Origin: Kutzneria buriramensis
GTDB lineage: Bacteria > Actinomycetota > Actinomycetes > Mycobacteriales > Pseudonocardiaceae
DNA length: 64,000 bases
NCBI RefSeq assembly: GCF_003387475.1
Contig: NZ_QUNO01000018.1
Location: 186,001-250,000 of the forward strand
Reading direction: 5' to 3'
Shown one piece after another: positions 10,407 to 38,384 of this stretch. Under the pieces are notes generated by a model. It was not told the DNA's origin, searched no databases, and saw only the letters and a program-made list of their open reading frames with translations. How positions within the stretch are numbered: the stretch's first letter is position 1; each line of letters starts with the position of its first letter. The position numbers were made by a program, and so were the translations under genes.

Positions 10407-11115
10407 GCGGCGCCTCCAGTTCGTCGAGGCTGGCGGCGCGAACCGTCAGCAGCGGCACGGTGGTCGCCAACGCGGCGAGATGCCCCTCGGGGGCATCGAT
10501 GTCGTACAGGTGGACCGCGGCCGACGGCCACCGCGGCACGGCGGTGGCGACGACGGGGCCGCTGACTTCGAGCCGCTTGGGCGGGGCGCGCAGGCCGAGT
10601 CCGGTGAGTTTCATGGCGGCCTCCTTGCGTGTCCACGCCGACACCAGCCACGACGCCCGCTCCGACGTTGGCAGGGCGTCGAAGTGCTGGCGCTCGTCGG
10701 CGGTGAGGCAGGCGCGGGCGAGGCCGTCCGGATCGGGGGCGGCGCGCAGGTCCTCGATGTCGACGCCGACGAGCCCACTGCCGGTGACAGCCATGATCAC
10801 CCAGTGCTCGGTGTGGGAGACCGAGTAGTCGATGGCGCCCCCGTCGATCGTCGCTGTGCGGAAGCGGGGCCGCCCGTGCCGCGCACCGGTGTCGCAGTGG
10901 TTGCAGGTGCGGTCGGTGACGATGTCGCTGGGCGGAATCCCCAGGTAGTGCGCGCCGACCAGCCGCTGCGTGGCCCGGGACGTGACGAAGGTGTCGCCGG
11001 CGGGGGTGCTGGCGAGCTTGGCGGCCCGCTGCCGTTCCTCGTCGTCCAGCATGGCCAGCCAGCCGGCGCGGGGACGCACCGGCACCAGCCAGACCTCGAC
11101 CTCGCCCGGGTTCAC
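10387..11115 (-). CDS. Sfp-type 4'-phosphopantetheinyl transferase
   Basis: 242 aa. Signature motifs GLVGVDIEDL and WTRKEAAMKLTGLGL identify the Sfp class, which converts apo carrier domains to holo form with CoA. The GTG start at 11115 overlaps the tricorn stop (GTGA), so it ends the leftward operon that begins with the VKQS peptide. It would serve the free ACPs and PKS carriers here; a second, AcpS-type transferase is in the divergent operon. Confidence 0.9.
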   Translation of the reverse strand: MNPGEVEVWLVPVRPRAGWLAMLDDEERQRAAKLASTPAGDTFVTSRATQRLVGAHYLGIPPSDIVTDRTCNHCDTGARHGRPRFRTATIDGGAIDYSVSHTEHWVIMAVTGSGLVGVDIEDLRAAPDPDGLARACLTADERQHFDALPTSERASWLVSAWTRKEAAMKLTGLGLRAPPKRLEVSGPVVATAVPRWPSAAVHLYDIDAPEGHLAALATTVPLLTVRAASLDELEAPLSRAGC

Positions 11116-14084
11116 GGCGTCAGCTGGGGGATCGGGGCGAGCGCCGCCACGGCTGCGGTGAGCTGGCGGTCCTCGTCGTCGACGGTGATGTCCGGTGTCA
11201 CACCACGGTTCTCCAGCACCTGGCCGTCCAGCACGTACCGGAACTCGGGCTGCGTGGTGACGCTGCCGTCCACCAGCCCGTGCCGGGGCCAGGTCGCGAT
11301 GACCCCGCCCCACGTCCGCCGGCCGACGATCGGGCCCAGCCGGAGGGTGCGGAAGCCCTGCGCGAAGATCTCGGCGTTGGAACCGGTGTGCTCGTTGACC
11401 AGCAGTGCCATCGGGCCGTTCGGCGCCTCCGGCGGGTACGCCGTCGACACGGCCCAGCGGCCGGTCTCGGCGCCGAAACGCCTGCGCGCCAGGCGATCCA
11501 GCAGCATCGGGGCGATCTGGCCGCCGCCGTTGAACCGGACGTCCACGATCAGCCCCTCGCGGTCCAGCTCGGTGAGGAAGCCCCTGGTGAACTCGGCGTA
11601 GCCGGCGGCGTTCATGTCCGGCACGTGCACGTAGCCGAGCCGGCCGCCGGACAGTTCCCGGACCAGGGCACGGTTTCCGTCGACCCAGTCCCGGTAGCGG
11701 GCGGCGGACTCGCTGGCCAGGGCGGTCACCGTGACCTTGCGCTCGGCGCCGTCGCGGACGAGGGTCAGCTCGACGTCACGATTCGCCTGCCCGACAAGGA
11801 GTTCGCCGGACATCGGCTGGCCGTTGACGGCGGTGACCCGGTCGCCCGGTCGAATGTCCGCGCCCAGTCGGTTGCACGGCGAGGTGGCGCGTGGATTCCA
11901 CGGGTCGCCGCGCAGGATGTTGCCGATGCGCCAACCGGGTTCCCAGTCCACGCCGAGGAAACCCTGGCCGTGGTAGGGGACCTGGCGGTACTCGCCGCCG
12001 TTCTCGTACGTGTGCGATGTGCCGAGCTCGGCCTGCAACTCCCACAACAGGTCAGACAGCTCCGCCCGCGTGGCCACGCGGTCCAGCAGCGCGGCATACC
12101 GGTCGTGCATGATCTCCCAGTCCACGCCGTTCATGCCGGCGTCCCAGAAACCCTCGCGCTGGAGCCGCCACGTCTCCCGGAACATCTGCCGCCACTCGGA
12201 TTCCGGCCGCACGGACACCTTGACCCGGGACAGGTCGAGCTTCTTGGGCTCGTCCTCGTCGATGTCCTCGGACTTCAGCAGCCGCAGCGTGCCGTCGTGG
12301 CGGTAGAGCAGGGTTTCGCCGCGGGCATCGGTGCACAGCTCGTCGACGGGGCTGAGCACGTCCTGGTCGACCTCGCCGGTGACGAGGTCGACCAGCGTGG
12401 CGATGCCGTCCGGCTCCGCGTCGGGCTGGGTGACGTCGGGGGCGGCCAGCGGCACGGAGTGCAGCAACACCTTGCCGGGCAGGCCGACGATCGCCGCGTA
12501 CCGGCCCTCCGGCACGGGAAACGGCAGCACGCGCCGCTCGATGCCGTCGAAGTCGATCTCCACCCGGGCCAGGGGTTCCGGGGTCCGGTGCTCGAACGGC
12601 GGCGGCTCGTCGGCGTCGAGCGTGACCAGGTAGGGCCGGCCGGCGTAGGGGAAGCCGAAGTCGAACTGCACCTGGTCGTGATCGACGACCAGGTCCCGCT
12701 GCCCGACGAAGTACAGGTACCGGCCGTTCGGGTCGAAGGCCGGCTTCGAGTCCCGCAGCACCGGCTCGGTGACCGCGAAGGTGCTGCCGCGCAAGGGATC
12801 CGCAACCTTGATCGCCGATGTTCGCGGCGCGGTGGGGAGCGTGTACGCCAGCCACCGGCCGTCCGGGGACCAGGCGAGATCCTCGATCCGCTCGTGCGGC
12901 GAGGAGTCGAGGAGCCGGGGGCGCAGGGGCGTCGAGGTGGTGTCGACGGCCCAGAGCTGCTGACGGTTGGTGGCAAAGGCGACCCAGCCGCCGGCGGGCG
13001 CGGCGGCGAGCTCCGTGACGGTGCCGGCGATCGGCGCGTCATCGGCGTCCAGGACGACGAGCCGCTCGTCCGGGCCGGTGTCTCCGGCGACCGCGACGAG
13101 ACGGCCGTCGGAAAGCCAGTCCAGCAGCCGATAGCGGATGCCGTCGGCCGCGCCGTGCTGGCGGACCGGGCCGGTCCACGGGGCCATGGTGAACGCCTTG
13201 CCGCGTACGCTGATCGCCACGGACTTGCCGTCCGGGCTGAGGCGGGCGTCGTCGAGGTGGTCCGCCGCCGGCACGATTCGGCGGGCGCACTGCGACCGCG
13301 AGCCCGCGACCGACACCGGGATCTCCGTGTCCAGCATGAAAAGCCTCGCGCCGGCGTGGTGCACCAGGCGGCGGCCGTCGGTCGTGAGGTTGCGGGCGTA
13401 GTACTCGCGGTGGTCGGTGTGCCGGTGCAGGTCGGTGCCGTCGGGCTGGCACGAGTACACGTTGCCGGTGCCCTCGTGGTCGCTGATGAAGAAGATCCGG
13501 TCACCTACCCAGCACGGGCTGGCCAGGTTCCCCGGCAGCGACAGCAGCTTCGTCAGGTCTCCATCCACAGTGGACGCCGTGTACAGCTCGCCGGCCAGGC
13601 CGCCGCGATAGTGCTTCCACCGCGCGGGATCGGCGGTGTTCAGGCCGATCACCACCCGGCCGTCCGAGGCGAAGGAGACGACGTCGGCCCGGCCCGGGCG
13701 CAGCAGCCGGGGGAGTCCGCCGGACGGCGACACCGCGAACAGCCGGAAGCCGAAGCCGGCGGGCTGCTCGGCGGCGGAGGCGTAGACGATCTCGCCGGTG
13801 GTGGGGTGCCAGCCGACCGTCACGCACCGCGTCGCCTGGTACGTCAGACGCCGTGCGGTGCCGCCGGCAACCGGCATCACGTACAGCTCGGACGGCCCGT
13901 CGTCAGAGCCGACGAACGCCACCATCGACCCGTCCGGCGACAGCCGGGGCCGACTGGCCTCCGACACGCCGGCGGTCAGCCGCCGCGCGCTTCCGCCGCC
14001 TGCCGGCACCGACCACAGATCGTCCTCGCAGGTGAAGACGACGGTGTCGCCGGCGATGGTCGGGAACCGCAGGTATCCGGTCAC
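11112..14084 (-). CDS. Tricorn-type protease (peptidase S41 family)
   Basis: 990 aa, no signal peptide, so cytoplasmic. Order as in tricorn: beta-propellers with repeated SPDG motifs (about residues 1-620), a C1 helical domain with the catalytic His region ELGTSHTYENGGEY, a PDZ domain (IRPGDRVTAVNGQPM) and the C2 domain with nucleophile Ser in NEHTGSNAEIF. Tricorn enzymes trim oligopeptides of roughly 6-20 residues. GTG start overlapping the upstream GNAT stop (GTGA). Its place in an operon led by a repetitive peptide suggests processing of that peptide, which is inference; a general housekeeping role is also possible. Confidence 0.85.
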   Translation of the reverse strand: MTGYLRFPTIAGDTVVFTCEDDLWSVPAGGGSARRLTAGVSEASRPRLSPDGSMVAFVGSDDGPSELYVMPVAGGTARRLTYQATRCVTVGWHPTTGEIVYASAAEQPAGFGFRLFAVSPSGGLPRLLRPGRADVVSFASDGRVVIGLNTADPARWKHYRGGLAGELYTASTVDGDLTKLLSLPGNLASPCWVGDRIFFISDHEGTGNVYSCQPDGTDLHRHTDHREYYARNLTTDGRRLVHHAGARLFMLDTEIPVSVAGSRSQCARRIVPAADHLDDARLSPDGKSVAISVRGKAFTMAPWTGPVRQHGAADGIRYRLLDWLSDGRLVAVAGDTGPDERLVVLDADDAPIAGTVTELAAAPAGGWVAFATNRQQLWAVDTTSTPLRPRLLDSSPHERIEDLAWSPDGRWLAYTLPTAPRTSAIKVADPLRGSTFAVTEPVLRDSKPAFDPNGRYLYFVGQRDLVVDHDQVQFDFGFPYAGRPYLVTLDADEPPPFEHRTPEPLARVEIDFDGIERRVLPFPVPEGRYAAIVGLPGKVLLHSVPLAAPDVTQPDAEPDGIATLVDLVTGEVDQDVLSPVDELCTDARGETLLYRHDGTLRLLKSEDIDEDEPKKLDLSRVKVSVRPESEWRQMFRETWRLQREGFWDAGMNGVDWEIMHDRYAALLDRVATRAELSDLLWELQAELGTSHTYENGGEYRQVPYHGQGFLGVDWEPGWRIGNILRGDPWNPRATSPCNRLGADIRPGDRVTAVNGQPMSGELLVGQANRDVELTLVRDGAERKVTVTALASESAARYRDWVDGNRALVRELSGGRLGYVHVPDMNAAGYAEFTRGFLTELDREGLIVDVRFNGGGQIAPMLLDRLARRRFGAETGRWAVSTAYPPEAPNGPMALLVNEHTGSNAEIFAQGFRTLRLGPIVGRRTWGGVIATWPRHGLVDGSVTTQPEFRYVLDGQVLENRGVTPDITVDDEDRQLTAAVAALAPIPQLTP

Positions 14085-14656
14085 GACAGGCCCTGCACTC
14101 CCGCTCGGACCCGGTCGGCGATCTCCTGCCGGCGCGCCTGTTCACGCTGCTTGCGGCCGCGCACGTCGTCTCGCGTCACCGTCCAGTAGCAGGCCGTGCG
14201 CCACTGGCCGACGGTGTAGGAGTCGTACTCCGCGCGGATCTGCGCGTGCGCGTCCAGCTCGGCCGCGGACAGCATCATCGTGTTGTGCGACAGCACCTGG
14301 TTGATGATCACGTCCATGTGCAGCTGCTCGCGCAGGTACTCGTGCGCCGCCTCGACCGCCTTGAAGCCGAAACCGCTGCGGTAGCGGGGAAGCACCGCGA
14401 ACGACAGCTCGCAGGTCTGGCTGCGCCAGTCGATGGAGGTGATCCACGAGAAGCCGACCACCTGGCCCTTCGAGCCGCACATGGTGAACAGCCGCTTGAC
14501 GTGGTGGCCGGACTCGATCGTCCGCCGCATGCCGTCGGCCAGCTCGAGGTCGGCCGCCGACATCGCGAAGTCGTTCAGGTTGGTCTGGTACTTGTTCTCC
14601 CGCAGCAACTCCGTGCGGACCGGGATGTCCGCCTCGGTGAAGTGCCGGACCGTCAT
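14081..14656 (-). CDS. GNAT-family N-acyltransferase (fourth of four)
   Basis: 191 aa. Core GNAT signals: CELSFAVLPRYRSGFGFKAVEAAHEYL (acyl-CoA pyrophosphate loop, cited for its RSGFGF core) and INQVLSHNTMML. The ATG at 14656 overlaps the upstream stop (ATGA) and is preferred to an earlier in-frame start. It transfers an acyl group from CoA or a carrier to an amine; the acceptor is unknown. Part of a run of four dissimilar GNATs. Confidence 0.8.
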   Translation of the reverse strand: MTVRHFTEADIPVRTELLRENKYQTNLNDFAMSAADLELADGMRRTIESGHHVKRLFTMCGSKGQVVGFSWITSIDWRSQTCELSFAVLPRYRSGFGFKAVEAAHEYLREQLHMDVIINQVLSHNTMMLSAAELDAHAQIRAEYDSYTVGQWRTACYWTVTRDDVRGRKQREQARRQEIADRVRAGVQGLS

Positions 14657-15102
14657 GAACGGCACGAGTCCGCCCTCCCCACGTAGACCAGGACGTCCTG
14701 CCAATCGTAGTTCTGCCAGCGGTGCCTTGGCAGCACGCCCACCTGCTCGAAGCCGCAGTCCGCGAAGCAGTTCTCCACGCCGTCGGGCACCATCGCCACG
14801 AAGGTGGTGCAGCGCTGGTACGTCGTCAGGAACTCCAGCAGCGCCCGCAGCGGCTCCGGGTCCGCCGAGGTGCTGGCGACGTACGCCTGGCGCGGCTGGT
14901 CGGTGTTGGGGGCGAAGCCGACCACCGTCTCGCCAGCGCTGAACAGCTGCGCCTGCAGGGACTTCAACTCGGCGGCGAGCAGGGAGTCGTTCTGGGTGAC
15001 GGGATCGAGGCCGAGGAAGCCGCGGGCGGCACCACCACAGGACTTCAATTCGGCGATCGCCATGTCGGTGTCGAGGCGCTGGAGGCTCAGAATCTCAGTC
15101 AT
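14653..15102 (-). CDS. GNAT-like acyltransferase (third of four)
   Basis: 149 aa starting at MTEILSLQRLD. The C-terminal half (VPDGVENCFADCGFEQVGVLPRHRWQNYDWQDVLVY, cited by its GFEQVGVLP core) has the typical ending of GNAT folds; the N-terminal half is divergent. Start overlaps the preceding gene by 8 nt and the stop overlaps the next start (ATGA). Function is inferred only from fold and neighbours. Confidence 0.65.
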   Translation of the reverse strand: MTEILSLQRLDTDMAIAELKSCGGAARGFLGLDPVTQNDSLLAAELKSLQAQLFSAGETVVGFAPNTDQPRQAYVASTSADPEPLRALLEFLTTYQRCTTFVAMVPDGVENCFADCGFEQVGVLPRHRWQNYDWQDVLVYVGRADSCRS

Positions 15103-15550
15103 TGCGCACAACTCCCCAGATCTCGCGGTCAATCGGCCGCCCGTCCAGCCACGTGGCCTCCGGCAGCACCGCTTCCCGCTGGAAGCCGACGTCGGCCAGT
15201 AGACCGATCGGTGGATCCACCAGCGGCGTCACCCAGCCGTGGATCCGGCTCAGGTTCAGGGTGAGGAACCCGTGCGCCACCACGGTCTTCAGCAGCACGT
15301 CCAGCCCGTCGACACCGTGCAGGCCGATCTCGACCCGCGCCCGGCGGTGCACCCAGTCCAGCTCGGTGTACCGGACGAAGCCCAGCCCCGGCGCGATGCA
15401 CAGCTCCTGGCCGGGGTCGGCCGGGGGCGGCACGGTGGTCGGCGCGGCCAGCGGCGGCCAGTCGGCCAACGGCAGCCCGAGCAGCTCGCCGGGCAGCCAC
15501 GGGCCGGCGAGCAGATCAGCGTCGCTGCCCCGGTATCCACGCAGTCTCAT
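15095..15550 (-). CDS. GNAT-family acyltransferase (second of four)
   Basis: 151 aa starting MRLRGYRGSDADLL. RimJ/RimL-like order: RRARVEIGLHG, LKTVVAHGFLTLNLSRIHGWV, and GFQREAVLPEATWLDGRPID, which matches the GF.REG.L.......G...D end of the family. ATGA overlap with the upstream gene. Substrate unknown. Confidence 0.75.
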   Translation of the reverse strand: MRLRGYRGSDADLLAGPWLPGELLGLPLADWPPLAAPTTVPPPADPGQELCIAPGLGFVRYTELDWVHRRARVEIGLHGVDGLDVLLKTVVAHGFLTLNLSRIHGWVTPLVDPPIGLLADVGFQREAVLPEATWLDGRPIDREIWGVVRND

Positions 15551-16041
15551 GAGATCGGCTCCCAGATTCGGGCGAACGACACGTATCCGTGGCGGCGGCC
15601 CTCGTGCACCGTCACCGCGCCCAACGTTCCCTCCTCGCGCAGGCCGGCGGAGCGTGCGAAGGCCAGGCCGCGGTAGTCGAACTCGTCGAAGCGCAGCGCC
15701 AATCGCACGACCTCGCGCCGCCATGTGTTGGCACGCAACAGCTCGCCGAACGCCGACTGCCACCACGCCGGCGGCGCGGACGCGCGCAGGCGCAGCTGCA
15801 TGCTGTAGTGGCAGGCGTTGTTGGCCTCGGACTCGACGGCGTACAGGCCGACCACCTCGCCGTCGGCGAGCAGCACGTGCGTGTCCTCGTCGATCAGCTC
15901 CAGGATCTCCCACTCCGGGCGGGTGTCCGGGTCGCCGGTGCGGAAGTAGAAGTCCGGCTCGGTGTAGAGGGCCAGCACGGCGTCGCGGTCGGCGTCCGAG
16001 TACGGCCGGCTCGACCAGCGTGGCGTCTCAGTTGTCGTCAT
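15547..16041 (-). CDS. GNAT-family acyltransferase (first of four)
   Basis: 164 aa. RimJ-like GNAT: RPYSDADRDAVLALY at the N-terminus, then FDYRGLAFARSAGLREEGTLGAVTVHEGRRHGYVSFARIW at the end (the AGLREEGTL core is diagnostic). Its start lies 14 nt inside the acyl-CoA dehydrogenase gene, so translation is coupled. Confidence 0.78.
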   Translation of the reverse strand: MTTTETPRWSSRPYSDADRDAVLALYTEPDFYFRTGDPDTRPEWEILELIDEDTHVLLADGEVVGLYAVESEANNACHYSMQLRLRASAPPAWWQSAFGELLRANTWRREVVRLALRFDEFDYRGLAFARSAGLREEGTLGAVTVHEGRRHGYVSFARIWEPIS

Positions 16042-17107
16042 GGCCCGTCCCGATGGTGAGGCGTTGGATGTTGCTGGTGCCGTCCATGAACTCGAACGCG
16101 TGCACGTCCCGGCACCACTTCTCCAGCAGCGGGTGCTCCAGCAGCCCGCCGGGCGTCAGTGCCGCCTCGGCCCAGCGCGCGGTCTCCACGGCGAGGTGGG
16201 TGGCGTGCAGCTTGCCGATCGACGGGGCGCGCCGGTCGTCCGGGTTGTTGTCGACGTCGTGGGCGCAGTCGAGCAGCAGTTCCCTTGCCGCTTCGAGTCT
16301 CGTCGCCATCAGCGGCTTCCACTGTGGACGGAGCTGGTGCACGTAGTCGGCGATGGCCAGTGCCACGCCGAGCGCCTGGGCGCCGATCTGCAGCCGCATG
16401 ATGTTGAAAGTCCTGGCCGCTCCCCAGAGCCCGCGCCGCGACGCCGGCAGGTGCGCCCCCAGCAGGCAGGTGCGGGGGATCTCGATGCCGTCGAAGGTCA
16501 TCTCGCCGAGGGCGGCCCCGCGCAGGCCGAACATCGTCAGCGCGCGGCCGCTGTAGCCGGGGCTCGGGTTGCGGACGATCACCGCGCGGATCGACAGGGG
16601 AGTGGGACCCGTGCGCGCGAACACCACGCCGATGCCGCCGCGTTCGGCGTTGGCGACGTAGCGCTTGCCGCCGTGCAGGCGGAAGTCCTTGTCCAGGCGC
16701 GTCTGCATGGCGGTGGCGTCGCTGCCGACCGACGGCTCGGTCATGCCGAAGAACGTCCACGGGCGCTCGTCGGCCAGCACGCGGTAGAACGCCTCCTGCT
16801 GCTCGGCGCTGCCGAGGGCGTCGACGGCCAGGCCGGCGAGCGACGGGGCGCGGCAGATGTTCAGCACGCCGGCGTCGCCGCGTGAGAGCTCGATGTTGGC
16901 GGCCGTCCGCGCGAGGCACGTCTCCGTGTACAGCTGGGCGCATTTGGGCAGGTCAGAGGTTCGAAAGTCGGGTGGGGTGGCGATGTCGCGGATGATGTCG
17001 AGCGCCGGGATCTCCGGCACCTCGCCGGCGTCGACCGCCAGCGCGTGCGGGCGCAGCGACGTCGCCAGTTCCGCCGACAGGCCCTGAAGTTCGTCCACAG
17101 TGTTCAT
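16028..17107 (-). CDS. Acyl-CoA dehydrogenase-type flavoprotein, large partner A
   Basis: 359 aa. Middle-domain FAD motif WTFFGMTEPSVGSDAT and C-terminal FEFMDGTSNIQRLTI place it in the acyl-CoA dehydrogenase superfamily. The usual catalytic Glu in the (E)GTS.IQR motif is Asp here. ATG at 17107 overlaps the stop of its half-size partner (ATGA). It is a clear paralogue of the enzyme at 24084-25220. With a free ACP and carrier-loading enzymes nearby, an acyl- or aminoacyl-ACP substrate is more likely than a fatty acyl-CoA; that is inference. Confidence 0.85.
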   Translation of the reverse strand: MNTVDELQGLSAELATSLRPHALAVDAGEVPEIPALDIIRDIATPPDFRTSDLPKCAQLYTETCLARTAANIELSRGDAGVLNICRAPSLAGLAVDALGSAEQQEAFYRVLADERPWTFFGMTEPSVGSDATAMQTRLDKDFRLHGGKRYVANAERGGIGVVFARTGPTPLSIRAVIVRNPSPGYSGRALTMFGLRGAALGEMTFDGIEIPRTCLLGAHLPASRRGLWGAARTFNIMRLQIGAQALGVALAIADYVHQLRPQWKPLMATRLEAARELLLDCAHDVDNNPDDRRAPSIGKLHATHLAVETARWAEAALTPGGLLEHPLLEKWCRDVHAFEFMDGTSNIQRLTIGTGHDDN

Positions 17108-17676
17108 GCGGCACCGATCCAGCAGTGGGCGGTGAGCCGGGACAGGTGAACCTCGAACATGGCGCCTGTCCCAGATGAATCGACACTGACGAAACCGCTG
17201 GCCCCCAACAGCTTGGCCAGCTCCCAGTCCACTGTGGTCAGACAGTGGTGCACGTCGGCGACGGCCTCGGGGCAGTCGCCGGCGACGGTCAGGGTGCGCC
17301 GGGCCGCCTCGGTCGCGACGTGCGCGTCGGCAAGGGCGCCCTGCACGAGCTGCTTGCCGATGGTCGGCTCGCCGCCGACCTTGCGCGCGGACAGGTGCTC
17401 GACGACCCGCTCGGCGAGCCGCCGGGTCAGCCCGAGGCGGACCGCCGCCAGCCGTGCGGCGATCTCCGGATCGGCCGGGCCGGCCTCGGTGCGGACGAAA
17501 CTGACGCCCCGCTCCTCGCGGACCACGGTCGCGCCCGAGGGGATGCCGGATGTCGGCCACGCCGCGACGCGGCCCGGCGCCTGCGCCGTCTCCGCGCCGG
17601 CCAGGGCCATGGCCAGCCCGACGGAAAGGCCGTGCTCGTGGCCGGCCCGTTCGCATTCCGCGATGGTGTGCCGCAT
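17104..17676 (-). CDS. Half-size acyl-CoA dehydrogenase-like subunit, small partner A
   Basis: 190 aa, start MRHTIAECERAG with GGGAGGATCC upstream. The second half (TIGKQLVQGALADAHVATEAARRTL...LLGASGF) matches the C-terminal helical bundle of acyl-CoA dehydrogenases; N-terminal and beta domains are missing. Together with the overlapping large partner it looks like a heteromeric dehydrogenase, as known for alpha/beta FadE pairs in mycobacteria. Paralogue of 23491-24084. Confidence 0.7.
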   Translation of the reverse strand: MRHTIAECERAGHEHGLSVGLAMALAGAETAQAPGRVAAWPTSGIPSGATVVREERGVSFVRTEAGPADPEIAARLAAVRLGLTRRLAERVVEHLSARKVGGEPTIGKQLVQGALADAHVATEAARRTLTVAGDCPEAVADVHHCLTTVDWELAKLLGASGFVSVDSSGTGAMFEVHLSRLTAHCWIGAA

Positions 17677-17775: not shown

Positions 17776-17816
17776 CGGCGGTGCGACGAGCGGGAGTCTC
17801 ACCCGCCGCACCGCCG
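17776..17816 (-). terminator. Hairpin directly after the VKQS peptide gene
   Basis: CGGCGGTGCG/CGCACCGCCG (17776-17785 with 17807-17816), an inner CGGG/CCCG pairing, then on the minus strand ATCTCATTTCTT. It starts 4 nt after the peptide stop. Partial termination here would give more peptide than enzyme mRNA, the common arrangement after RiPP precursor genes. Confidence 0.65.
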
Positions 17817-17820
17817 TGTA

Positions 17821-17952
17821 TCACGACTGCTTCACGCTCTGCTTCACGGACTGCTTGACCGACTGCTTCACGCTCTGCTTGACCGACTGCTTGACGGACT
17901 GCTTCACGCTCTGCTTGACGGACTGCTTGACCGCGGCCTTGGTGTTCGGCAT
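17821..17952 (-). CDS. Repeat peptide MPNTKAA(VKQS)9, putative precursor or scaffold peptide
   Basis: 43 codons plus TGA: seven residues MPNTKAA, then nine perfect tandem copies of Val-Lys-Gln-Ser. Repeat units use different synonymous codons (Ser as TCC, AGC or TCG; Val as GTC or GTG), so the peptide rather than the DNA repeat seems to be under selection. GAGGCG lies about 10 nt upstream of the ATG. It is the first gene of the leftward operon, followed by a hairpin, then the dehydrogenase pair, four GNATs, tricorn protease and PPTase. Ten lysines make it strongly basic. No known family; the arrangement suggests a ribosomal precursor or an acyl-acceptor scaffold. Too short for standard gene calling. 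Confidence 0.75.
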   Translation of the reverse strand: MPNTKAAVKQSVKQSVKQSVKQSVKQSVKQSVKQSVKQSVKQS

Positions 17953-18175
17953 CGTGCTCACGCCTCATTCCTTGGTGGTGTGAATTGATTTCCCGGCTTC
18001 GCCTCGGTGCTGCTCCGCCGGGGGTGCCAAAAGATTCGCCTGTCGACCCGGCCGGTGTCAACGGCTCGTGCTGACAGCTATTTCCCGGAAACAACATGAC
18101 ACCGTCGAACACTGCCGCGGCGGCTTTTTCGGGGTCACTATCTGGCTACTCGCACGAACGGTTTCGGAGGTCACG
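17953..18175. promoter_or_regulatory. Divergent promoter region of the two operons
   Basis: 223 bp between the VKQS peptide start and the condensation/ATP-grasp start. It must hold both promoters; I see no convincing -35/-10 pair. Two copies of TTTCCCGG (near 17990 and 18079) are the only repeated element noticed. Confidence 0.4.
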
Positions 18176-21022
18176 ATGGTCGCGAAGAGCGCGGACCTGT
18201 GCTGGGGGCAGCGGCACCACGTGCTGCACTACCTCCAGACGCCGGCCGATGCCCGGCTCGACATGCACATCGCGATCAACCACCCGGTGCCGGCCGGCGC
18301 CACCGTCGCGAACGTGCGGTCCGCGCTGACCTACCTGGTCCGGCGGCACGAGATCCTGCGTACGGTATACAACCTGCTGGCGCGGCCCTGGCCGCAGCAG
18401 GAGGTGCAGCCGCCGGCGGAGCCGCCGCTGCACGTGGTCGGCGTCGACGACAAGCCGGCGGAGCTGATCAAGCGGCTGACCGAGGAACCGTTCGACATCA
18501 CCACGGAATGGCCGTTCCGCGCCTGCGTGATCGCCGCCGGCGACACCGTGCGCCGGCTGCACCTCGTCTTCAACCACCTGTCGCTGGACGACGTCAGCCT
18601 CGGCACGCTGCTCGGCGAGCTGGACACGGTGCTGGCCGCGCGGATCGCGCGCCGCCCGATCCAGCTGCCGCCGGTCGTGTACCAACCGGTCGATCTCGCC
18701 CGGCACGAGGCGACGCTCTCCCCGGACAAGGCCCTGGACCACTGGCGCCGCACGGCCGCCGAGCTGCCCCAGGACATCTACGCGAACCGCCGCACCGGCG
18801 CCAAGGGCTCCTTCGCCGCCTCCTTCACGGTGCCGGAACTGCTCGCCACCGCGCGGGTGATCGCCAGTGAGCACAAGGTCTGGCCGTCGGCGGTGCACCT
18901 CGCCACCTACGCGATCACCATGGCCGCCTTCACGGGCGAGCGGCGGATCGCCTTCCGGATGTACACCAGCCAGCGGGAATCCAGCGGCTACGAGCAGGTC
19001 CTGGGCTGCGCCTCGTATCCGACGCTGGTCACCATCGACACCGCCGGCAGCTTCGCGGAGGTCCTGAAGCAGGCCGCGGCCCGCGTCGAGGAAGCGATGG
19101 CGTACGCGCACGTGCCCTACGACCTGGTGGTCGAGCTCGTGGCCGCGGCCGGCGAGCCGCGCGTGGAGTCGGAGCTGAACTTCCTCAACTACGCGCCGAG
19201 ATCCTGCCGCACCAGGCGCGATCGGTTCGTGTGGAACGCGGAACCGGTCAGCTGGGCCAAGTCCGGCGGCGACACCTACTTCCGCGTCTACGAGTGGTGC
19301 GACGGCACGACCCTGGCGTTGCAGGCGACGGCCGACGTGATGAGCCGCGACGACGTGGAGCGCTTCCTTCGTGGCTACGCGGACGTGCTCCGGTCCGGCG
19401 GGGAGCCGGTCTTCTCCGCTCCGGCGGGCGGACGCGTGGCCACGAAGGAACTCGCCCGTCCCGACCCGGGGGCGGAACGGGCTCTGCTCGAGGCCGTTGC
19501 CGAGGTCAACGGCCTCGGGCAGGTCGACCCCCAAGTCAGCTACCTGGCGGCCGGGGGCCGCGCGCTGCTGCTGCCGCGGGTGGCGCAGGCGTTGCGGGAC
19601 AAGGGATGGGACGACGTGTCGCTCGGCCACCTCGCCAGCGCGCGGCCCCTGCGGACGATCGCCGACGAACTGAGGAGAGCGATGAATTTCGTCGAACGAC
19701 TGAAGAAGGACCTGACCGGCGACGAACACGCCCGCTTCGTGTTCGTGAACAACTTCGAGGTGGAGCGGAGCTGGGCGGTCGGCGAGCCGAAGCTGCCCGG
19801 CGCCGGCATCGCGTTCGCCGGCGCGACCGTGAACCGCATGGAGGAGATGGGCGCGCTGCTGGCCGACACCGGCGACGTGGTCGTGCTCAAGGCCGCGATG
19901 GACGACGAGTTCGCCGCCTACCTCGCCCGCCTCGGCGCGGCCGCCGGCACCACGCTCGCCGCCGAGAACAGCAGCCCCGAGCTGATGGTCACCGAGGACG
20001 CGCTCAACTCCCCGGCGCTGCTGGACGAGTTGCGCAAGCTGGCCGACGGCCGTACCTACCTGATGCCGCTGGGCATCTCCGCGGCCGAGGAGGAACTGGC
20101 CAAGGAGACCGGGCTGCCGCTGGCCGGCACCACGGCGCAGACCTGCAAGGCGGTCAACGGCAAGATCTTCAGCCGCCAGCTGGTGGAAGCCGTCGGCATC
20201 CGGGAGGTTCCGGGCCGGATCGTGCGCACGGTCGGCGAGCTCCGGCCGGTGCTGACCGAGCTGCTCGCCGAGGGCGGGCGGGTCGTCGTGAAGGAATCCC
20301 TCGGCGTGTCGGGGCGCGGCATGGTCGTCGTCGCCGACGAGCAGGCCGCCAACCGGCTGCTGCGGCTGATCGAGCGCCGTGGCCCGGACGCGCCGGCCAA
20401 CCTCGTCGTCGAGACGTGGATCGAGCACGCCCAGGACCTCAACTACCAGTTCGTGGTGTCCCGCACCGGAAACGTGCGGTTCGAGACCGTCAAGGCGGCC
20501 GTGCTCTCCGACGGTGTGCACCAGGGCCACCGCTTCCCGGTGGAGCTGCCGCCGGTCGCCGCCGCCGAGCTCCAGGACGCCGTCGAGAAGATCGGCAGGG
20601 CGCTGCACGCCGAGGGCTTCTTCGGACTCGTCGGCGTGGACGCGATGCTGGCCACCGACGGCACGCTGTACCCGTGCCTGGAGATCAACGCCAGGTTCAA
20701 CATGTCGACCTACCAGAGCCGGATCGCGGAGCGCTTCATCCCCGAGGGCGCGCACGCCATCGCCGCCCAGTTCGCGCTGCGGCCGTCCCGGGTGCACTCC
20801 TTCGGCGAGGTCGAGGCGGCGCTCGGCGAGCTGCTGCTGGACGCGGGCCGCCGCACCGGCGTGCTGGTCAACAACTACGCGACGCTCAACGCCGCCGCCA
20901 CCGACGGCAGCTTCCACGGTCGTTTGTATGCGATCTGCGTCGCCGACACCGCCGAGGCCGCGCTGGAACTGCGCCAGGAAGCCGACGCACGTCTCCAGAG
21001 AATGGTGGGAAACCAGTCATGA
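18176..21022 (+). CDS. Condensation domain - inactive carrier - ATP-grasp ligase fusion
   Basis: 948 aa; ATG at 18176 has GGAGGTCACG upstream. Residues ~1-430 are an NRPS condensation-type domain (WGQRHHVLHYL; active-site variant NHLSLDD at ~134, keeping His and first Asp of HHxxxDG). Residues ~435-500 look like a carrier domain, but the pantetheine site GG(D/H)S reads GGRA, so it cannot be primed. Residues 503-948 are an ATP-grasp ligase with a pre-ATP-grasp part, most like butirosin BtrJ (VVVKESLGVSGRGM, GLVGVDAMLATDG, LEINARFNMSTY). It probably loads an amino acid on the neighbouring ACP or forms an amide with it. A good internal RBS and ATG occur at 19682, at the ATP-grasp boundary. Confidence 0.82.
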   Translation: MVAKSADLCWGQRHHVLHYLQTPADARLDMHIAINHPVPAGATVANVRSALTYLVRRHEILRTVYNLLARPWPQQEVQPPAEPPLHVVGVDDKPAELIKRLTEEPFDITTEWPFRACVIAAGDTVRRLHLVFNHLSLDDVSLGTLLGELDTVLAARIARRPIQLPPVVYQPVDLARHEATLSPDKALDHWRRTAAELPQDIYANRRTGAKGSFAASFTVPELLATARVIASEHKVWPSAVHLATYAITMAAFTGERRIAFRMYTSQRESSGYEQVLGCASYPTLVTIDTAGSFAEVLKQAAARVEEAMAYAHVPYDLVVELVAAAGEPRVESELNFLNYAPRSCRTRRDRFVWNAEPVSWAKSGGDTYFRVYEWCDGTTLALQATADVMSRDDVERFLRGYADVLRSGGEPVFSAPAGGRVATKELARPDPGAERALLEAVAEVNGLGQVDPQVSYLAAGGRALLLPRVAQALRDKGWDDVSLGHLASARPLRTIADELRRAMNFVERLKKDLTGDEHARFVFVNNFEVERSWAVGEPKLPGAGIAFAGATVNRMEEMGALLADTGDVVVLKAAMDDEFAAYLARLGAAAGTTLAAENSSPELMVTEDALNSPALLDELRKLADGRTYLMPLGISAAEEELAKETGLPLAGTTAQTCKAVNGKIFSRQLVEAVGIREVPGRIVRTVGELRPVLTELLAEGGRVVVKESLGVSGRGMVVVADEQAANRLLRLIERRGPDAPANLVVETWIEHAQDLNYQFVVSRTGNVRFETVKAAVLSDGVHQGHRFPVELPPVAAAELQDAVEKIGRALHAEGFFGLVGVDAMLATDGTLYPCLEINARFNMSTYQSRIAERFIPEGAHAIAAQFALRPSRVHSFGEVEAALGELLLDAGRRTGVLVNNYATLNAAATDGSFHGRLYAICVADTAEAALELRQEADARLQRMVGNQS

Positions 21023-22293
21023 AGATCCAGGGCATCGAGTACGAGGAGCTGGCGCAGGAGTTCGGCACGCCACTCTACGTCTACGACGGCGACGTCCTGT
21101 ACGACACGATCGCCGGGCTGCGCAACGCGTTGCACCCCAAGCTGGAGATCTTCTACTCGCTCAAGGCGAACCCGAACGTCAGCGTGTTCGCCGCGCTGCG
21201 CGCCGGCGGGGCCCGCGCCGAGGTCTCGTCGCTGGTGGAGCTGCGCACCGTGCTCCAGGCCGGCACGCCGCCGGAGGACATCATCTTCCTCGGCCCCGGC
21301 AAGAGCGAGCGGGAGCTGCGCGCCTGCATGGAGACCGGCGTCTACGCCATCGTCTGCGAGTCCTTCGCGGAGCTCGACCACATCGAGCGGATCGCCGGCC
21401 AATGGGGCATGTCGCAGAAGGTGTTGCTGCGCATCAACCCCACCTGCGCGATCAGCGGCTCGCGGCTGACCATGGGCGGCAAGCCCCGCCAGTTCGGCAT
21501 CGACGAGGCGCAGGTGCTGGCCGCCGGCGACCTGAGCGTGAAGTACCTGCACGCGGACGTGGCCGGCATCCAGGTGTACATGGGCACCCGCATCCTGGAC
21601 GCGGAGGTGGTGGGCAAGAACACCCGCTACATCCTCGACCTGGCCGAGCGGGTCGCCGCGACGTGCAACATCCGGCTGGACACCGTGGACATCGGCGGCG
21701 GCCTCGGCGTGGCCTACTTCGACGGCGAGCAGGACATCGACGCCGTGGACGTGGCCACCGAGATCAACCCGCTGCTGGACAAGTTCGTCGGCGCGCACCC
21801 GGAGACCCGGCTGATCATGGAGTCCGGGCGCTTCCTGGCCGGCCGCGCCGGCGTCTACGTGATGGGCGTGCGGTACGTCAAGGAGTCGATGGGCGAGAAG
21901 TTCGCCATCGCCGACGGCGGCACGCACCACCACATGGCGGCGGTCGGCATCGGCTCGTTCGTCAAGCGCAACTTCCCGGCGGCGCTGCTGTCCAGCCGCG
22001 AGGACGTGGGCGAGGCGGAGCCGTGGAACGTCACCGGCCCGTTGTGCACCCCCAACGACTCGGTGCTCAAGCACGCCGAGCTGCCGGCGCTCCGGCCCGG
22101 CGACCTGATCGGCATTCTCAACTCCGGCGCGTACGGGCCGACGGCCTCGCCCGGCCTGTTCCTCAGCCACGGCTACCCGGCCGAGGTCCTGGTCTCCGAC
22201 GGCAAGGCGCACCTGGTGCGTCGCCGTGACGAGCCCGAGGACCTGCTGGAGCCGCAGATTCTGGTCAACCCCACTGAAAGGCAGTCCCGATGA
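21019..22293 (+). CDS. PLP-dependent fold-type III decarboxylase (BtrK-like)
   Basis: 424 aa of the ornithine/diaminopimelate decarboxylase family. The PLP lysine is in IFYSLKANPN, the glycine loop in DIGGGLGVAY, phosphate contacts in MESGRFLAG, and the catalytic Cys in GPLCTPNDS. ATGA overlap with the ATP-grasp gene and with the ACP gene. In butirosin, BtrK decarboxylates glutamyl-ACP to 4-aminobutyryl-ACP; the same trio (ligase, decarboxylase, ACP) here suggests decarboxylation of a carrier-bound amino acid, most simply Glu. The residue is not proven. Confidence 0.88.
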   Translation: MKIQGIEYEELAQEFGTPLYVYDGDVLYDTIAGLRNALHPKLEIFYSLKANPNVSVFAALRAGGARAEVSSLVELRTVLQAGTPPEDIIFLGPGKSERELRACMETGVYAIVCESFAELDHIERIAGQWGMSQKVLLRINPTCAISGSRLTMGGKPRQFGIDEAQVLAAGDLSVKYLHADVAGIQVYMGTRILDAEVVGKNTRYILDLAERVAATCNIRLDTVDIGGGLGVAYFDGEQDIDAVDVATEINPLLDKFVGAHPETRLIMESGRFLAGRAGVYVMGVRYVKESMGEKFAIADGGTHHHMAAVGIGSFVKRNFPAALLSSREDVGEAEPWNVTGPLCTPNDSVLKHAELPALRPGDLIGILNSGAYGPTASPGLFLSHGYPAEVLVSDGKAHLVRRRDEPEDLLEPQILVNPTERQSR

Positions 22294-22550
22294 ACCGCGA
22301 AGAGATCGTCGCGCACCTGCGTGTCGCCCTGTCGGCCGTGCTGAACAAGGAGGTCGGCGAGCTGTCGCCCACCTCGCGCCTGTTCGAGGACCTCGCGCTG
22401 GACTCCACGAGCGTGATCGAGCTGCTGATGTCGCTGGAGGACACCATCGGCCTGGAGATCGACCCGGACGAGCTGGGCCCCGAGGTGTTCCAGACCGTGG
22501 GCAGCCTGACCGACTACATCGAGCACGGCTTCGCCAAGGCCGCGGTCTGA
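22290..22550 (+). CDS. Acyl carrier protein
   Basis: 86 aa. Pantetheine attachment Ser in LALDSTSVIEL, acidic helix II (ELLMSLEDTIGLEIDPDEL). It overlaps the decarboxylase stop (ATGA). As the only free, primable carrier in this operon it is the likely hub for the ATP-grasp ligase, decarboxylase, dehydrogenases and KAS III-like enzymes. Confidence 0.92.
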   Translation: MNREEIVAHLRVALSAVLNKEVGELSPTSRLFEDLALDSTSVIELLMSLEDTIGLEIDPDELGPEVFQTVGSLTDYIEHGFAKAAV

Positions 22551-22552: not shown

Positions 22553-23494
22553 ATGCCGATCGGACTGTCCACAGTGGCCGTCCAGCTGCCCGGACGGTCC
22601 GAGCCGGTTCAGGACATCCTGCAACGCGCCGGGCGGGACGCCATGGAGCGCAAGATGTTCGCGAAGATCCACGGCTTGCGGGAGAGCCCGACGCTGGCCG
22701 ACCACGAGCGCATGGAGGATCTGTTCGTGGCGGCCGGCCGGGCGGCGCTTGCCGGCGGCACGGCGGGGCTGGTGCTCTACGGGCACACGATGCTCACCCA
22801 GGAGTTCGGGCTGCGCGGCGGGTTCCCGGACCGGGTCCGCGCCCGGCTGGGCCTGTCCGGCAGCCGGTTCTTCGGGCTGTCGCACGTGAACTGCACGTCG
22901 GTGCTGCGCTGCCTGGACTTCGCCCGGCGGTACCTGGCCCGGCACCCCGAGGAGCGGGTGCTGGTGCTCGGCGGTGATCACGGCAGCGTGCACGACGTGG
23001 CGCGGGTGATCCCCGGCATCGCCATCGGCGGCGACGGGGTCGTCGGCCTCACGGCCACCGCCTCGGGCCGGTGCCGCTACCGCTACCTCACCGGTGTCAG
23101 CACCCGTGACCTGCGGTTCCACCGCAACATGCGGATGTCGCCGAGGGAGGCCGAGGAGTTCAGCCGGGTCTGCTGCGACGAGACCGTGCGGTCCCTGCAC
23201 CGGGCCGCCGAGTCGGCCGGCATGACCGTGGACGAGCTGGACTGGGTGCTGCCGCACCTGTCCAACCGGATGTTCTGGGGCAGCGTGAGCCGCCGCGCCG
23301 GGATTCCGCGGGAGAAGGTCCTGCTGGACCTGATCCCATTGTGCGGGCACAACTTCGGCGCGGACGCGCTGATGGCGCTGGACCACGCCGACCGCACCGG
23401 CCGGCTGCGCCCCGGTGACCGCTGCGCCCTGGTCTCGGTGGCCCAGGGCGCCTACTTCCACACCGCGATCGTCGAAGTCGAGGAGGACTCATGA
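22553..23494 (+). CDS. KAS III-like acyltransferase/condensing enzyme 1
   Basis: 313 aa. Thiolase-fold enzyme with Cys nucleophile in HVNCTSVLRCLDFA and His in LPHLSNRMFW (PHQAN position). At the third triad position, usually GNTSAAS, the sequence reads GHNFGAD, so Asn is replaced by His in my alignment. KAS III relatives with altered triads (CerJ, CloN2) transfer acyl groups instead of condensing malonyl-ACP. Close paralogue of 27814-28767. Confidence 0.85.
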   Translation: MPIGLSTVAVQLPGRSEPVQDILQRAGRDAMERKMFAKIHGLRESPTLADHERMEDLFVAAGRAALAGGTAGLVLYGHTMLTQEFGLRGGFPDRVRARLGLSGSRFFGLSHVNCTSVLRCLDFARRYLARHPEERVLVLGGDHGSVHDVARVIPGIAIGGDGVVGLTATASGRCRYRYLTGVSTRDLRFHRNMRMSPREAEEFSRVCCDETVRSLHRAAESAGMTVDELDWVLPHLSNRMFWGSVSRRAGIPREKVLLDLIPLCGHNFGADALMALDHADRTGRLRPGDRCALVSVAQGAYFHTAIVEVEEDS

Positions 23495-24084
23495 GCACTG
23501 TTCTCGAGCAGTGCGAGCGGATCGCGCGGGACGAGGGCCTGGCCGCCGGCCTGGCCGCCGCGCTGTCGGGCACCGAGGTCACCGCCGCCGCACCCGGAAG
23601 CTACGCCGCCGTGCCGGCGTCCGATGTACCCGAGGGCGCCGAGGTCCGCACGCACAGCCTGGCCAACCGCGAGGAGATCGTGTTCCTGGCGTGCCCGGGC
23701 GAGCGGCCGGCCGCGGACTACACGCTCGCCGAGATCGGCCGGCTGCTCGCGGCGGTGCGCATCGGCACCGTGCGGCGGCTGCTGGACGAGGCCGTGGCCT
23801 ACCTGTCGGAGCGGACGGTCGGCGACGAGCCGCTGATCCGCAAGCAGCTGATCACCGGCACCGTCGGCGACGTCGCCGCCGAGCTGGAGATGGCGCGGGC
23901 GTACGCGTCGAACCCGTTGTCCCCCGAGGCTCTGGCCGACCTGCACACCAAGTTGGACGACCTGGGCTGGCAGGTGACGCAGCTGTTCGGCGCGTCCGGC
24001 TACATCGCCGACCACCCGGTGCGGGCGCTGTACGTCTCGGCGCTGGTGGCCAACACCTGGATCGACCGGAAGGGAGCGGCGTGA
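23491..24084 (+). CDS. Half-size acyl-CoA dehydrogenase-like subunit, small partner B
   Basis: 197 aa. Paralogue of 17104-17676: N-terminal VLEQCERIARDEGLAAGLAAALSG parallels AECERAGHEHGLSVGLAMALAG, and the helical bundle RKQLITGTVGDVAAELEMARAY aligns with the partner-A bundle. No FAD-binding middle domain. ATGA overlap with the KAS III gene, TGATG overlap with its large partner. Confidence 0.7.
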   Translation: MSTVLEQCERIARDEGLAAGLAAALSGTEVTAAAPGSYAAVPASDVPEGAEVRTHSLANREEIVFLACPGERPAADYTLAEIGRLLAAVRIGTVRRLLDEAVAYLSERTVGDEPLIRKQLITGTVGDVAAELEMARAYASNPLSPEALADLHTKLDDLGWQVTQLFGASGYIADHPVRALYVSALVANTWIDRKGAA

Positions 24085-25220
24085 TGATCGAGCTCGACGA
24101 GCGGCTGCGGGCCGTGCGCGACGACTGCCGGGACGCGGTCGAGGACATGCGCGCCCGTGCCCTGCCCATCGACGCCGACCCGGACGACATGGAGCAGCAC
24201 TTCAACTCGCCGGTGTACACCATGATCCGGCTCTCCAACACCCCTCCGGAGTATCGCGAGTCGGTGGCCGGCGGGTACCGGCTGATGAAGGCGAAGTCCG
24301 TGCTGGAGGACATCGTCGGCATGGTCGAGCTGGCCCGCGGCGACATGTCCACCATGTTCGCCTGCCCGTGCCCGGCGCTGGCCGGCGTCTACGTCAGCCT
24401 GTTGGGCAACCCGGCGCAGCAGGAGAAGTTCTACACCCGCCTGCACGGCGGCCGGACCTGGACGTTCTTCGCGATGAGCGAGCCGGGGCACGGCAGCGAC
24501 GCCACGAACATGCAGACCCGGCTGGAGAAGGACGGCAACGGCGGCTACCTGATGTACGGCGCCAAGCGGTACATCGGCCACGGTGCCCGCGGCGGCATCG
24601 GCCTGGTCTTCGCCCGTACCGGCCGGTCCGCGCTGTCCATCCGCGCGGCGATGGTCGAGGTGCCGTCTGAAGGCTGGAGTGCGCAGCGGCTCAACACCGT
24701 CGGCCTGCGCGGCGCGTATCTGTCCGAGCTCCAGTTCGACGGCGTACCGGTGGCGGCGGACATGCTGCTGGGCGAGCACCTGCCGGTCACCCGGCGTGGC
24801 ATCTGGGGTGCGGTCAAGACGTTGAACAACATGCGGATCCAGATCTCCGCCAGCGCCGTGGGAACCGCCATGGCCATCACGGAATACGTTGCCGAGCACC
24901 GGAAGAACGCCCCCGGCGTGGACCTGGCGCTGGCCCGCGCGGAGGCCGGCAAGCAGCTGATCTTCCAGGCCGCGGCCAAGCTCGACGCCGACCCGGAGCG
25001 CGGCTACTTCGCCAGCGCGTCCAAGCTGAGCGCGGTGCGGATGGCCCAGCAGACGGCCCAGTGGGCGATCACGTCCATCGGCCCGGCCGGCCTGATCGAG
25101 CACCCGCTGCTGGAGAAGTGGACCCGGGACGTGCGGGCCTTCGAGTTCATGGACGGCACCAGCAACATCCAGCGGCTGCACGTGGCCCGCGGCTACCAGT
25201 CGGGAGACGCAGATGGCTGA
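24084..25220 (+). CDS. Acyl-CoA dehydrogenase-type flavoprotein, large partner B
   Basis: 378 aa starting MIELDERLRAVRD. FAD motif WTFFAMSEPGHGSDATNMQTRLEKD (core EPGHGSDAT), C-terminal FEFMDGTSNIQRLHV with Asp in place of the catalytic Glu, exactly as in partner A. Likely forms a heteromer with the small partner encoded just upstream and oxidises an ACP-bound substrate. Close relationship to 16028-17107 implies duplication of the pair across the divergent promoter. Confidence 0.85.
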   Translation: MIELDERLRAVRDDCRDAVEDMRARALPIDADPDDMEQHFNSPVYTMIRLSNTPPEYRESVAGGYRLMKAKSVLEDIVGMVELARGDMSTMFACPCPALAGVYVSLLGNPAQQEKFYTRLHGGRTWTFFAMSEPGHGSDATNMQTRLEKDGNGGYLMYGAKRYIGHGARGGIGLVFARTGRSALSIRAAMVEVPSEGWSAQRLNTVGLRGAYLSELQFDGVPVAADMLLGEHLPVTRRGIWGAVKTLNNMRIQISASAVGTAMAITEYVAEHRKNAPGVDLALARAEAGKQLIFQAAAKLDADPERGYFASASKLSAVRMAQQTAQWAITSIGPAGLIEHPLLEKWTRDVRAFEFMDGTSNIQRLHVARGYQSGDADG

Positions 25221-25941
25221 CCTGAGCATCTCCAAGCTGTGCGTCGCCGTGCGCACGCACACGGATTACCTTCCCCTGACGGCGTTTCCGGACGACCTGC
25301 TGCCCAAGCAGCGGGTGGAGGCGGCGATCCAGGAGGGCATCCCGCTGGAGCACCTGATCGTCGTGAACCCGGCCGACTCCGACCGGCCCGAGCTGAGCGA
25401 CCTGGCGCTGGCCGCGGTCGGCGTGCCGGACGACGACCAGCCGCTGTTCCTGATCCGCTCCGGCCCGCTGCGCGACCCGATGGTCACGCTGCTGGCGCGG
25501 ATGGTGCTGAAGTTCGGCTGGCGCGGCGACGACATCGGCATCACGCACCTGGACGAACTCGGCGGCACCGTGGGATTCGAGCTGCTGGACTGGGCGGTGC
25601 CGGCCGAGGCGACGGTGCTGATCTGCGACGAGCCCGTGTTCGCGGACGCCCGCGTCGGCACCGGCCGCTTCGCCACCGTGTCGATGCGCGTGCACCAGGG
25701 CCCCGGTCCGCTGCGCGTGCTGGACGCCGGCGAGGGCGCCCCGGGCCCGTATCCGGACGTCGAGTGGACGTTCACCGGCGCCGGCGCGTGCGACGGCTGG
25801 CTGGACGTGCACGCCGCGCTGTCCGCCGGCGACGTCGCCGACGGCGACCGGATCCTGTTGCACACCAAGGGCCCGCTGCGCGAGGGCTGGCTGCTCGCGC
25901 AGGCCGTCGACGCCGGCGGCGTAGAGCTGGGCGCCGGCTGA
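25213..25941 (+). CDS. Unidentified protein, possibly a degenerate KAS III-like subunit
   Basis: 242 aa, not recognised with confidence. The end (AALSAGDVADGDRILLHTKGPLREGWLLAQAV) resembles the last strand and loop of KAS III enzymes (GD.VLL..G.G..WG..L), and ELSDLALAAVG resembles a helix before the active site, but neither a nucleophile Cys in context nor a PHxxN motif is visible. It overlaps the dehydrogenase gene by 8 nt and the AcpS gene by TGATG, so it belongs to the pathway. It could be a partner of the two complete KAS III-like proteins. Confidence 0.6.
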   Translation: MADLSISKLCVAVRTHTDYLPLTAFPDDLLPKQRVEAAIQEGIPLEHLIVVNPADSDRPELSDLALAAVGVPDDDQPLFLIRSGPLRDPMVTLLARMVLKFGWRGDDIGITHLDELGGTVGFELLDWAVPAEATVLICDEPVFADARVGTGRFATVSMRVHQGPGPLRVLDAGEGAPGPYPDVEWTFTGAGACDGWLDVHAALSAGDVADGDRILLHTKGPLREGWLLAQAVDAGGVELGAG

Positions 25942-38131: not shown

Positions 38132-38141
38132 GTCACGCTCC

Positions 38142-38384
38142 TCAGACGACCGCGGACCGCAGGCCGTCCACCAGCTCGGTCATCGCCTTGGCGGTGCGGA
38201 AGTTGTCGATGCGCAGCTCGTCGTTGGGGATGGTGATGGTGAACTCCTTCTCGATGAACATGACCAGCTCCATGGCGAACAGGGAGTTGATGTAGCCCAG
38301 CGAGAAGATGTCCTCGACGTCGCTGATCTCCGCCTGCGGGAAGCGGTTGGTGATGAACGCGAGAATGCGATCCGTGGTGGTCAT
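38142..38384 (-). CDS. FkbJ-like acyl carrier protein
   Basis: 80 aa. Attachment Ser in LGYINSLFAMELVMFIE, the NSLFAM variant typical of FkbJ/ZmaD carriers that hold the glycerate-derived extender. Lies between the FkbK- and FkbI-like genes, 9-10 nt gaps on both sides. Confidence 0.92.
   Translation of the reverse strand: MTTTDRILAFITNRFPQAEISDVEDIFSLGYINSLFAMELVMFIEKEFTITIPNDELRIDNFRTAKAMTELVDGLRSAVV

Follow-up and report, generated by a model that had tools for sequence, protein, structure and literature searches.

A conserved gene for a lysine-periodic peptide beside four GNAT-type genes in Kutzneria and other actinomycetes: a possible scaffold for acylation

The stretch of DNA analysed in this study, the window, comprises 64,000 nucleotides from Kutzneria buriramensis. 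A small gene lies on its minus strand at 17821..17952, with the ATG at 17952 and the stop codon at 17823-17821. Translation confirmed what an earlier note on this DNA had read: the whole product of 43 amino acids is MPNTKAA followed by nine perfect VKQS units, MPNTKAA(VKQS)9. The varied synonymous codons described in that note were found for Val (GTC or GTG) and Ser (TCC, TCG, or AGC), but not for Lys and Gln, which are encoded by AAG and CAG throughout. Tandem Repeats Finder detected a 36-base period of three units in the VKQS array (93% matches) in addition to the 12-base unit (77% matches). This higher-order period makes it probable that the array expanded by duplication of three-unit blocks. 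A probable ribosome-binding site, GAGG (17963..17966, minus strand), is located about 10 nt upstream of the ATG, in line with the earlier note. An in-frame GTG occurs at 17961, three codons upstream of the ATG, and is GCG in G222 and L033. The ATG was kept in all four Kutzneria copies, whereas the upstream GTG was not conserved. The hairpin that had been noticed directly after the stop codon was also found. It begins 5 nt past the stop (17776..17816, minus strand), has 17 bp and no T run, and folds at -41.7 kcal/mol (z -6.5 against 200 dinucleotide shuffles). Folding of 26 loci showed a strong hairpin 3' of the peptide stop in 24 (z -3.0 or lower against single-base shuffles), shifted 17 and 23 nt farther downstream in L071 and L048, respectively. 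The window peptide had no Pfam match at E<=0.001.

Eight enzyme genes follow on the same strand from 17676 to 10387, and the peptide gene is the first of the operon, as the earlier note had stated. The fold or family of most of these enzymes was recognised. The first two genes encode a small acyl-CoA-dehydrogenase-like protein, sACD1 (17104..17676; Pfam Acyl-CoA_dh_1, 5.9e-7), and a protein of the acyl-CoA-dehydrogenase family, ACD1 (16028..17107; Pfam, 4.2e-17). Four GNAT-type genes come next. GNAT1 (15547..16041) is GNAT-like by weak profile matches to one acetyltransferase and two helicase chains (E 0.15-0.44), and Acetyltransf_1 of Pfam matched one of the 13 members of its family at E 0.12. 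GNAT2 (15095..15550), the only GNAT that was modelled, has a predicted structure with the GNAT fold, closest to spermidine (polyamine, SpeG) acetyltransferases. Spermidine acetyltransferases acylate primary amines. GNAT3 (14653..15102) is GNAT-like by 15 weak matches, all to acetyltransferases (E 0.04-0.82), and Pfam gave no GNAT match for it. GNAT4 (14081..14665; Pfam Acetyltransf_3, 1.7e-8) is likely the catalytic acyltransferase. Of the GNAT4 copies tested, the two from Amycolatopsis have the canonical P-loop; it was not seen in the two from Kutzneria or in that of Actinophytocola. Since it was seen only in the Amycolatopsis copies, donor binding by GNAT4 remains putative. Profile comparison of GNAT1 with GNAT4 and with GNAT2 gave no match, and that of GNAT2 with GNAT4 gave a weak one (match probability 25.6%). 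The operon continues with a tricorn-type S41 protease in which the Ser and His motifs are present (11112..14084; Pfam and motif check) and a 4'-phosphopantetheinyl transferase (PPTase, 10387..11100; Pfam ACPS, 5e-16).

A divergent plus-strand operon and a polyketide synthase (PKS) part reaching to ~57 kb, both absent from the earlier note, belong with the peptide because conservation ties them to it. The first plus-strand gene (18176..21022) encodes a condensation (C) domain fused to a PGM1-like PreATP-grasp/ATP-grasp part (Pfam PreAtp-grasp, 4.7e-19; ATP-grasp, 1.2e-7). In its C domain motif, NHLSLDD, the first His is replaced by Asn. It is followed by a PLP decarboxylase whose nearest solved relative is BtrK (21016..22293; structure-chain match, 301 bits), an acyl carrier protein (ACP, 22290..22550), a KAS III-like protein with Cys and His present (KS1, 22553..23494; Pfam and motif check), the small ACAD-like protein sACD2 (23491..24084), the ACAD ACD2 (24084..25220), a thiolase-fold KAS III-like partner (25213..25941), a stand-alone adenylation domain (26321..27817), a second KAS III-like protein (27814..28767), the AMP-dependent ligase A2 (31431..32933), and an ABC-2 type transporter of two genes (32927..34523). 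A possible LuxR-type regulator is encoded at 29981-30964 (GerE, 2.9e-5); several Streptomyces loci have a counterpart of it close to the C domain. The minus strand then carries a thioesterase, type II by our reading (35167..35949), an ACAD and ACP pair that we read as extender-unit type (36998..38384), and three type I PKS proteins (39230..55541), the first with an uncertain start codon near 55517. The last PKS protein ends in a carrier domain and has no thioesterase domain. Genes related to this PKS were also seen in Amycolatopsis and in several Streptomyces that bear the lysine peptide. A second BtrK-like decarboxylase lies at 55792..57030 on the plus strand. One cluster thus holds two different PLP decarboxylases, both nearest to BtrK among solved structures, and the solved-structure entry of BtrK is annotated as L-glutamyl-ACP decarboxylase.

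We investigated how widely the peptide occurs. The earlier note had named related loci with an absent or broken repeat as the finding that would speak against it; we found intact counterparts in 27 genomes, four of Kutzneria and 23 of other actinomycetes, with 24 distinct peptide sequences. A family search with the C/ATP-grasp protein (390 genomes, E<=1e-60) gave matches in 62 genomes, and 20 regions around such matches were fetched. A lysine-repeat ORF was in the same place in all 16 regions having the ATP-grasp part of the system; the other four, which matched in the C domain only, had neither the GNATs nor the lysine peptide. A second search, with motifs from the GNAT4 alignment against a collection of the genomes of 84,980 species, gave 20 loci, nine of them in genomes already in the family search. 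The repeat was inside the locus in 17 of the 20. For L072, the peptide of that genome had already been found just outside, at L048, and L068 starts at GNAT1, so that the peptide position falls outside the sequence. In XM83C (L070), the GNAT4 contig has no peptide; it was located via GNAT2 on another contig, beside GNAT1-3. The rule that the GNATs imply the peptide therefore held in this genome as well. The system is rare: of the 396 genomes sampled from the phylum and the 394 from the class, the GNAT4 profile matched only its own.

These results demonstrated that the peptide gene is a real, conserved gene. A meaningless repeat ORF would be short and of low complexity, as this one is, and lysine-rich repeats do occur elsewhere: a raw 8-lysine DNA pattern was present in 68 of the 390 family genomes, system genomes included, and the reversed control matched in some too. 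The raw pattern is unspecific outside the own genome and also matches other lysine-rich places, such as those in G042 and G149. In G201, which had no C/ATP-grasp match, another period-4 lysine repeat (KDSA/KDSV/KESA) was seen at C25:14165-14299. However, the gene is conserved in place in 27 genomes, and in Kutzneria, the genus to which G223 also belongs, the lysine pattern was found in 4/4 genomes with the cluster and 0/3 without it. Among the 41 Kutzneria units only three amino-acid changes occur, all at Q; V, K, and S are invariant, even though Ser uses both TCN and AGC codons. The comparison refutes the meaningless ORF, and the probability left to it is negligible. Seven AAG codons at 12-base spacing were found at a single site in the own genome (11.97 Mb), the peptide gene, and the reversed pattern gave no match there. 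A chance repeat was ruled out by this count, the Kutzneria comparison, and the family pattern survey. Coding on the opposite strand was rejected too: those readings are entirely different from genus to genus, being Cys-rich in Kutzneria and ASLDATFDA-like in Amycolatopsis, whereas the lysine frame is retained.

We next compared the peptides. With the phase of the count fixed on the first periodic lysine, Lys was every fourth residue in 249/249 units of 21 distinct peptides. It was every fifth residue in 37/37 units of three peptides, those of S. radicis, S. sp. YIM 98790, and S. aidingensis; in two of these the first gap is 4, and the count starts at the second lysine. In the GNAT4 tree, the period-5 peptides make up a single clade with support of 99/97. 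The peptides have 7 to 24 lysines, the first at residue 3 to 7 in those examined, and the TBY4 peptide has three additional lysines off phase. For the L063 and L069 peptides, the start codon is uncertain. Outside Kutzneria, units such as SKEA, SKVA, VKEA, ATKAV, and AVKAA were found. At period 4 the residue following Lys is the most variable (2.47 bits), and small residues (A, S, V, T) predominate at the other positions. VKQS was therefore ruled out as the conserved unit; what is conserved is Lys at exact spacing, with varying neighbours. An argument from one helix face was also dropped, as spacings of 4 and 5 fit no single face. To judge from these peptides, selection has kept the lysine and its spacing and little else.

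It seems unlikely that the peptide is an unmodified cationic helper that serves the polyketide as a sink, as a counter-ion, or in self-protection, while the GNATs act on a small molecule. The peptide is regular and cationic, the hairpin after its stop suggests high expression of the first gene, and GNATs can serve self-resistance, according to the accessible part of PMC13060382. However, an exact, concerted spacing of 4, or of 5 in one clade bar the first gap in two peptides, exceeds what charge needs, and the four GNAT-type genes share the operon with the peptide.

The partners of the peptide were surveyed in the 27 genomes (6.8 to 94 kb fetched from each). GNAT1-4 and the tricorn protease lie beside the peptide in 26 of them; in the exception, G184, the peptide is at the end of a 6.8-kb contig. 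The repeat ORFs that the earlier note proposed to look for beside the same GNAT/dehydrogenase set were likewise found in 26 genomes, where the contig extends far enough. In the DNA fetched, the C domain was found in 26/27 genomes, the PPTase in 25/27, and the ATP-grasp gene in 20/27. The ATP-grasp gene was not found in six streptomycete-family genomes and one MAG that have the peptide and the GNATs (20 to ~60 kb fetched). A type I PKS was present in 13 of the 14 genomes with more than ~20 kb fetched, the other 13 genomes having been read less far. The fourteenth, Actinophytocola, had type II-like ketosynthases and a dehydratase in place of the type I PKS; no C domain was seen in the 40 kb fetched, and no acyl ligase A2 in the genome at E<=1e-60. 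The acyl machinery thus varies, being type I PKS in Kutzneria, Amycolatopsis, and Streptomyces and type II-like in Actinophytocola, but the peptide and the GNATs stay. In five streptomycetes (ICBB 8177, Streptantibioticus, CBMA29, A. alni, and TBY4), neither the ATP-grasp nor the KAS III set was found in the DNA fetched, and the ACP, dehydrogenases, GNATs, and protease were retained. Since they persist in these loci, the peptide, the dehydrogenase pair, the four GNAT-type genes, and the protease form the core.

The ATP-grasp part was our first lead from Pfam, and it is now the basis of a rival reading only. The peptide would be a multi-core precursor like that of pheganomycin, from which the protease frees tetra- or pentapeptides, and the PGM1-like ATP-grasp enzyme would add a non-proteinogenic acyl unit to their N-termini. 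Both loci have a PreAtp-grasp/ATP-grasp protein and a repeated ribosomal peptide; in the accessible parts of the sources, PGM1 joins the core peptide to an unusual amino acid (PMC8939145) and the precursor has two cores (PMC9484694). However, the gene was missing from the DNA fetched for 7/27 genomes, PGM1_C stayed under the Pfam cut-off (20.9 vs 22.5 bits), and the Kutzneria ATP-grasp is fused to a condensation domain and adjoins the BtrK-like decarboxylase and ACP, as for ACP loading. No core residue is conserved except Lys. The multi-core VKQS peptide of the earlier note is weakened as well, because VKQS occurs only in Kutzneria among the 27 genomes and the residues between lysines vary between and within peptides elsewhere. 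We consider such a precursor improbable.

Among the three readings offered in the earlier note, the lysine-rich scaffold for acylation is the best match: no residue other than lysine is invariant, four GNAT-type genes adjoin the peptide in the 26 genomes that could be judged, and the modelled GNAT is nearest to polyamine acetyltransferases. Selection keeps the lysine and its spacing next to amine-acylating enzymes irrespective of how the acyl chain is made, and this is most simply explained if the lysines serve as acceptor sites. We therefore propose, at somewhat less than even confidence, that the peptide is a scaffold without a leader: the GNATs would acylate its lysine amines, and the tricorn protease would then cut it. 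The lysine acylation, its donor, the order of the steps, the cutting, and the export are what we infer. The peptide would be the substrate, a "lysine comb," of a hybrid ribosomal-peptide/polyketide pathway in which carrier proteins bear the acyl groups during their assembly. The ATP-grasp or adenylation enzymes may load amino acids; the BtrK-like enzymes would then decarboxylate these, and the dehydrogenase pairs would oxidise them. The polyketide chain, from a synthase that ends without a thioesterase domain, would probably be transferred by way of the condensation domain. The GNAT set would move the acyl groups onto the evenly spaced lysine side-chain amines, GNAT4 probably being catalytic and GNAT1-3 probably structural or peptide-binding. 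The tricorn-type protease would turn the loaded peptide into short acyl-lysine fragments, and the ABC transporter would export them.

Several results count against this scaffold. GNAT1 and GNAT3 are weakly assigned as GNATs, the canonical P-loop was not seen in the Kutzneria and Actinophytocola copies of GNAT4 tested, and the hairpin is weak in two of the 26 loci (L063 and L069). Tricorn-type proteases are also housekeeping enzymes. Moreover, the lysines do not fall on a single helix face, and at least nine lysines for a small product lack a reason in it. The number of lysines, which varies freely as a polymer-like product would allow, and the ABC transporter would also suit a brush-like lipopeptide with 7 to 24 side chains, in which the intact acylated peptide is the product and the protease serves turnover or self-protection. 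There is little to expect from this alternative, as a dedicated protease is conserved in 26/27 genomes and the repeats of this short peptide begin at once, leaving no room for an export signal. For the acylated scaffold, release by cutting with the dedicated protease is likely. A further proposal, for which we have distinctly limited confidence, is a new class of ribosomal carrier: a disposable comb bearing 7 to 24 acyl chains at once on side-chain amides, possibly while they are still being processed. Its spacing, not its sequence, would be inherited, with a spacing of 5 in one streptomycete clade, and the same comb-and-GNAT module would serve type I and type II-like polyketide pathways.

We compared the locus with known systems. 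In goadvionins and lipoavitides, the acceptor is the acylated N-terminus of a class III lanthipeptide, whereas the lysine-peptide locus has a lysine-only comb. The adjacent ATP-grasp, BtrK-like decarboxylase, and ACP genes of the window resemble the butirosin pathway (BtrI/J/K), and the ATP-grasp presumably parallels BtrJ; unlike in butirosin, the proposed acceptor here is a peptide lysine. Goadvionin and lipoavitide clusters combine a GNAT and polyketide or fatty-acid machinery with a ribosomal peptide (PMC13060382). Selidamides (phaeornamide, kamptornamide, and nostolysamides) also have a ribosomal peptide encoded beside a GNAT, and lysine or ornithine side chains are acylated (PMC13060382, PMC9505594). 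During the maturation of nostolysamide, a lysine side chain is acylated by a tandem GNAT, of which one domain has a P-loop and the other does not, and related GNAT clusters do not always encode a lanthionine synthetase (PMC13060382). Phaeornamide and nostolysamides are described with a leader and a lanthionine synthetase, whereas the lysine peptide has no N-terminal leader of the NHLP/Nif11-like kind, given the early first lysine and the lack of a Pfam match for the window peptide. It further differs from selidamides in its 7 to 24 lysines, putatively acylated, its four separate GNAT-type genes, the ACP/PKS machinery, and the tricorn protease. PEARL scaffold peptides (3-thiaglutamate, ammosamide) share the concept, in that a small molecule is assembled on a peptide that is later discarded (PMC10880893, PMC9505594). 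There, a tRNA-dependent LanB-like enzyme adds one residue at the C-terminus; none was found among the window genes scanned with Pfam, nor was the type III PKS or the amidinotransferase of pheganomycin-type (guanidinotide) clusters. The earlier note knew of no peptide family like the VKQS repeat, and our literature searches, from which subscription papers were mostly out of reach, also met no paper seeming to describe such lysine-periodic peptides.

If the acylated scaffold is true, a peptide can be reduced to a lysine ruler and still be strictly selected, with enzymes that acylate it repeatedly in register. A peptide lysine would then be a new type of acceptor in polyketide release, as opposed to a thioesterase or an amine small molecule. 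The scaffold would also indicate that Kutzneria, Amycolatopsis, and Streptomyces make a so far unknown family of acyl-lysine products, and it would provide a genetically simple system for altering freely how many modification sites there are and how far apart they stand.

Variants of the cluster were also seen. Related clusters at L049, L051, and L052 have the C domain, acyl ligase, and BtrK-like decarboxylase, with PKS matches in L051 and L052; in the 20 kb read, they contain neither the lysine peptide nor GNATs and represent a comb-less version of the cluster. Two adjacent, parallel cassettes occur in S. radicis (L088-L089), each with a loader, an ACP, a KAS III, a dehydrogenase, and a thiolase-fold protein.
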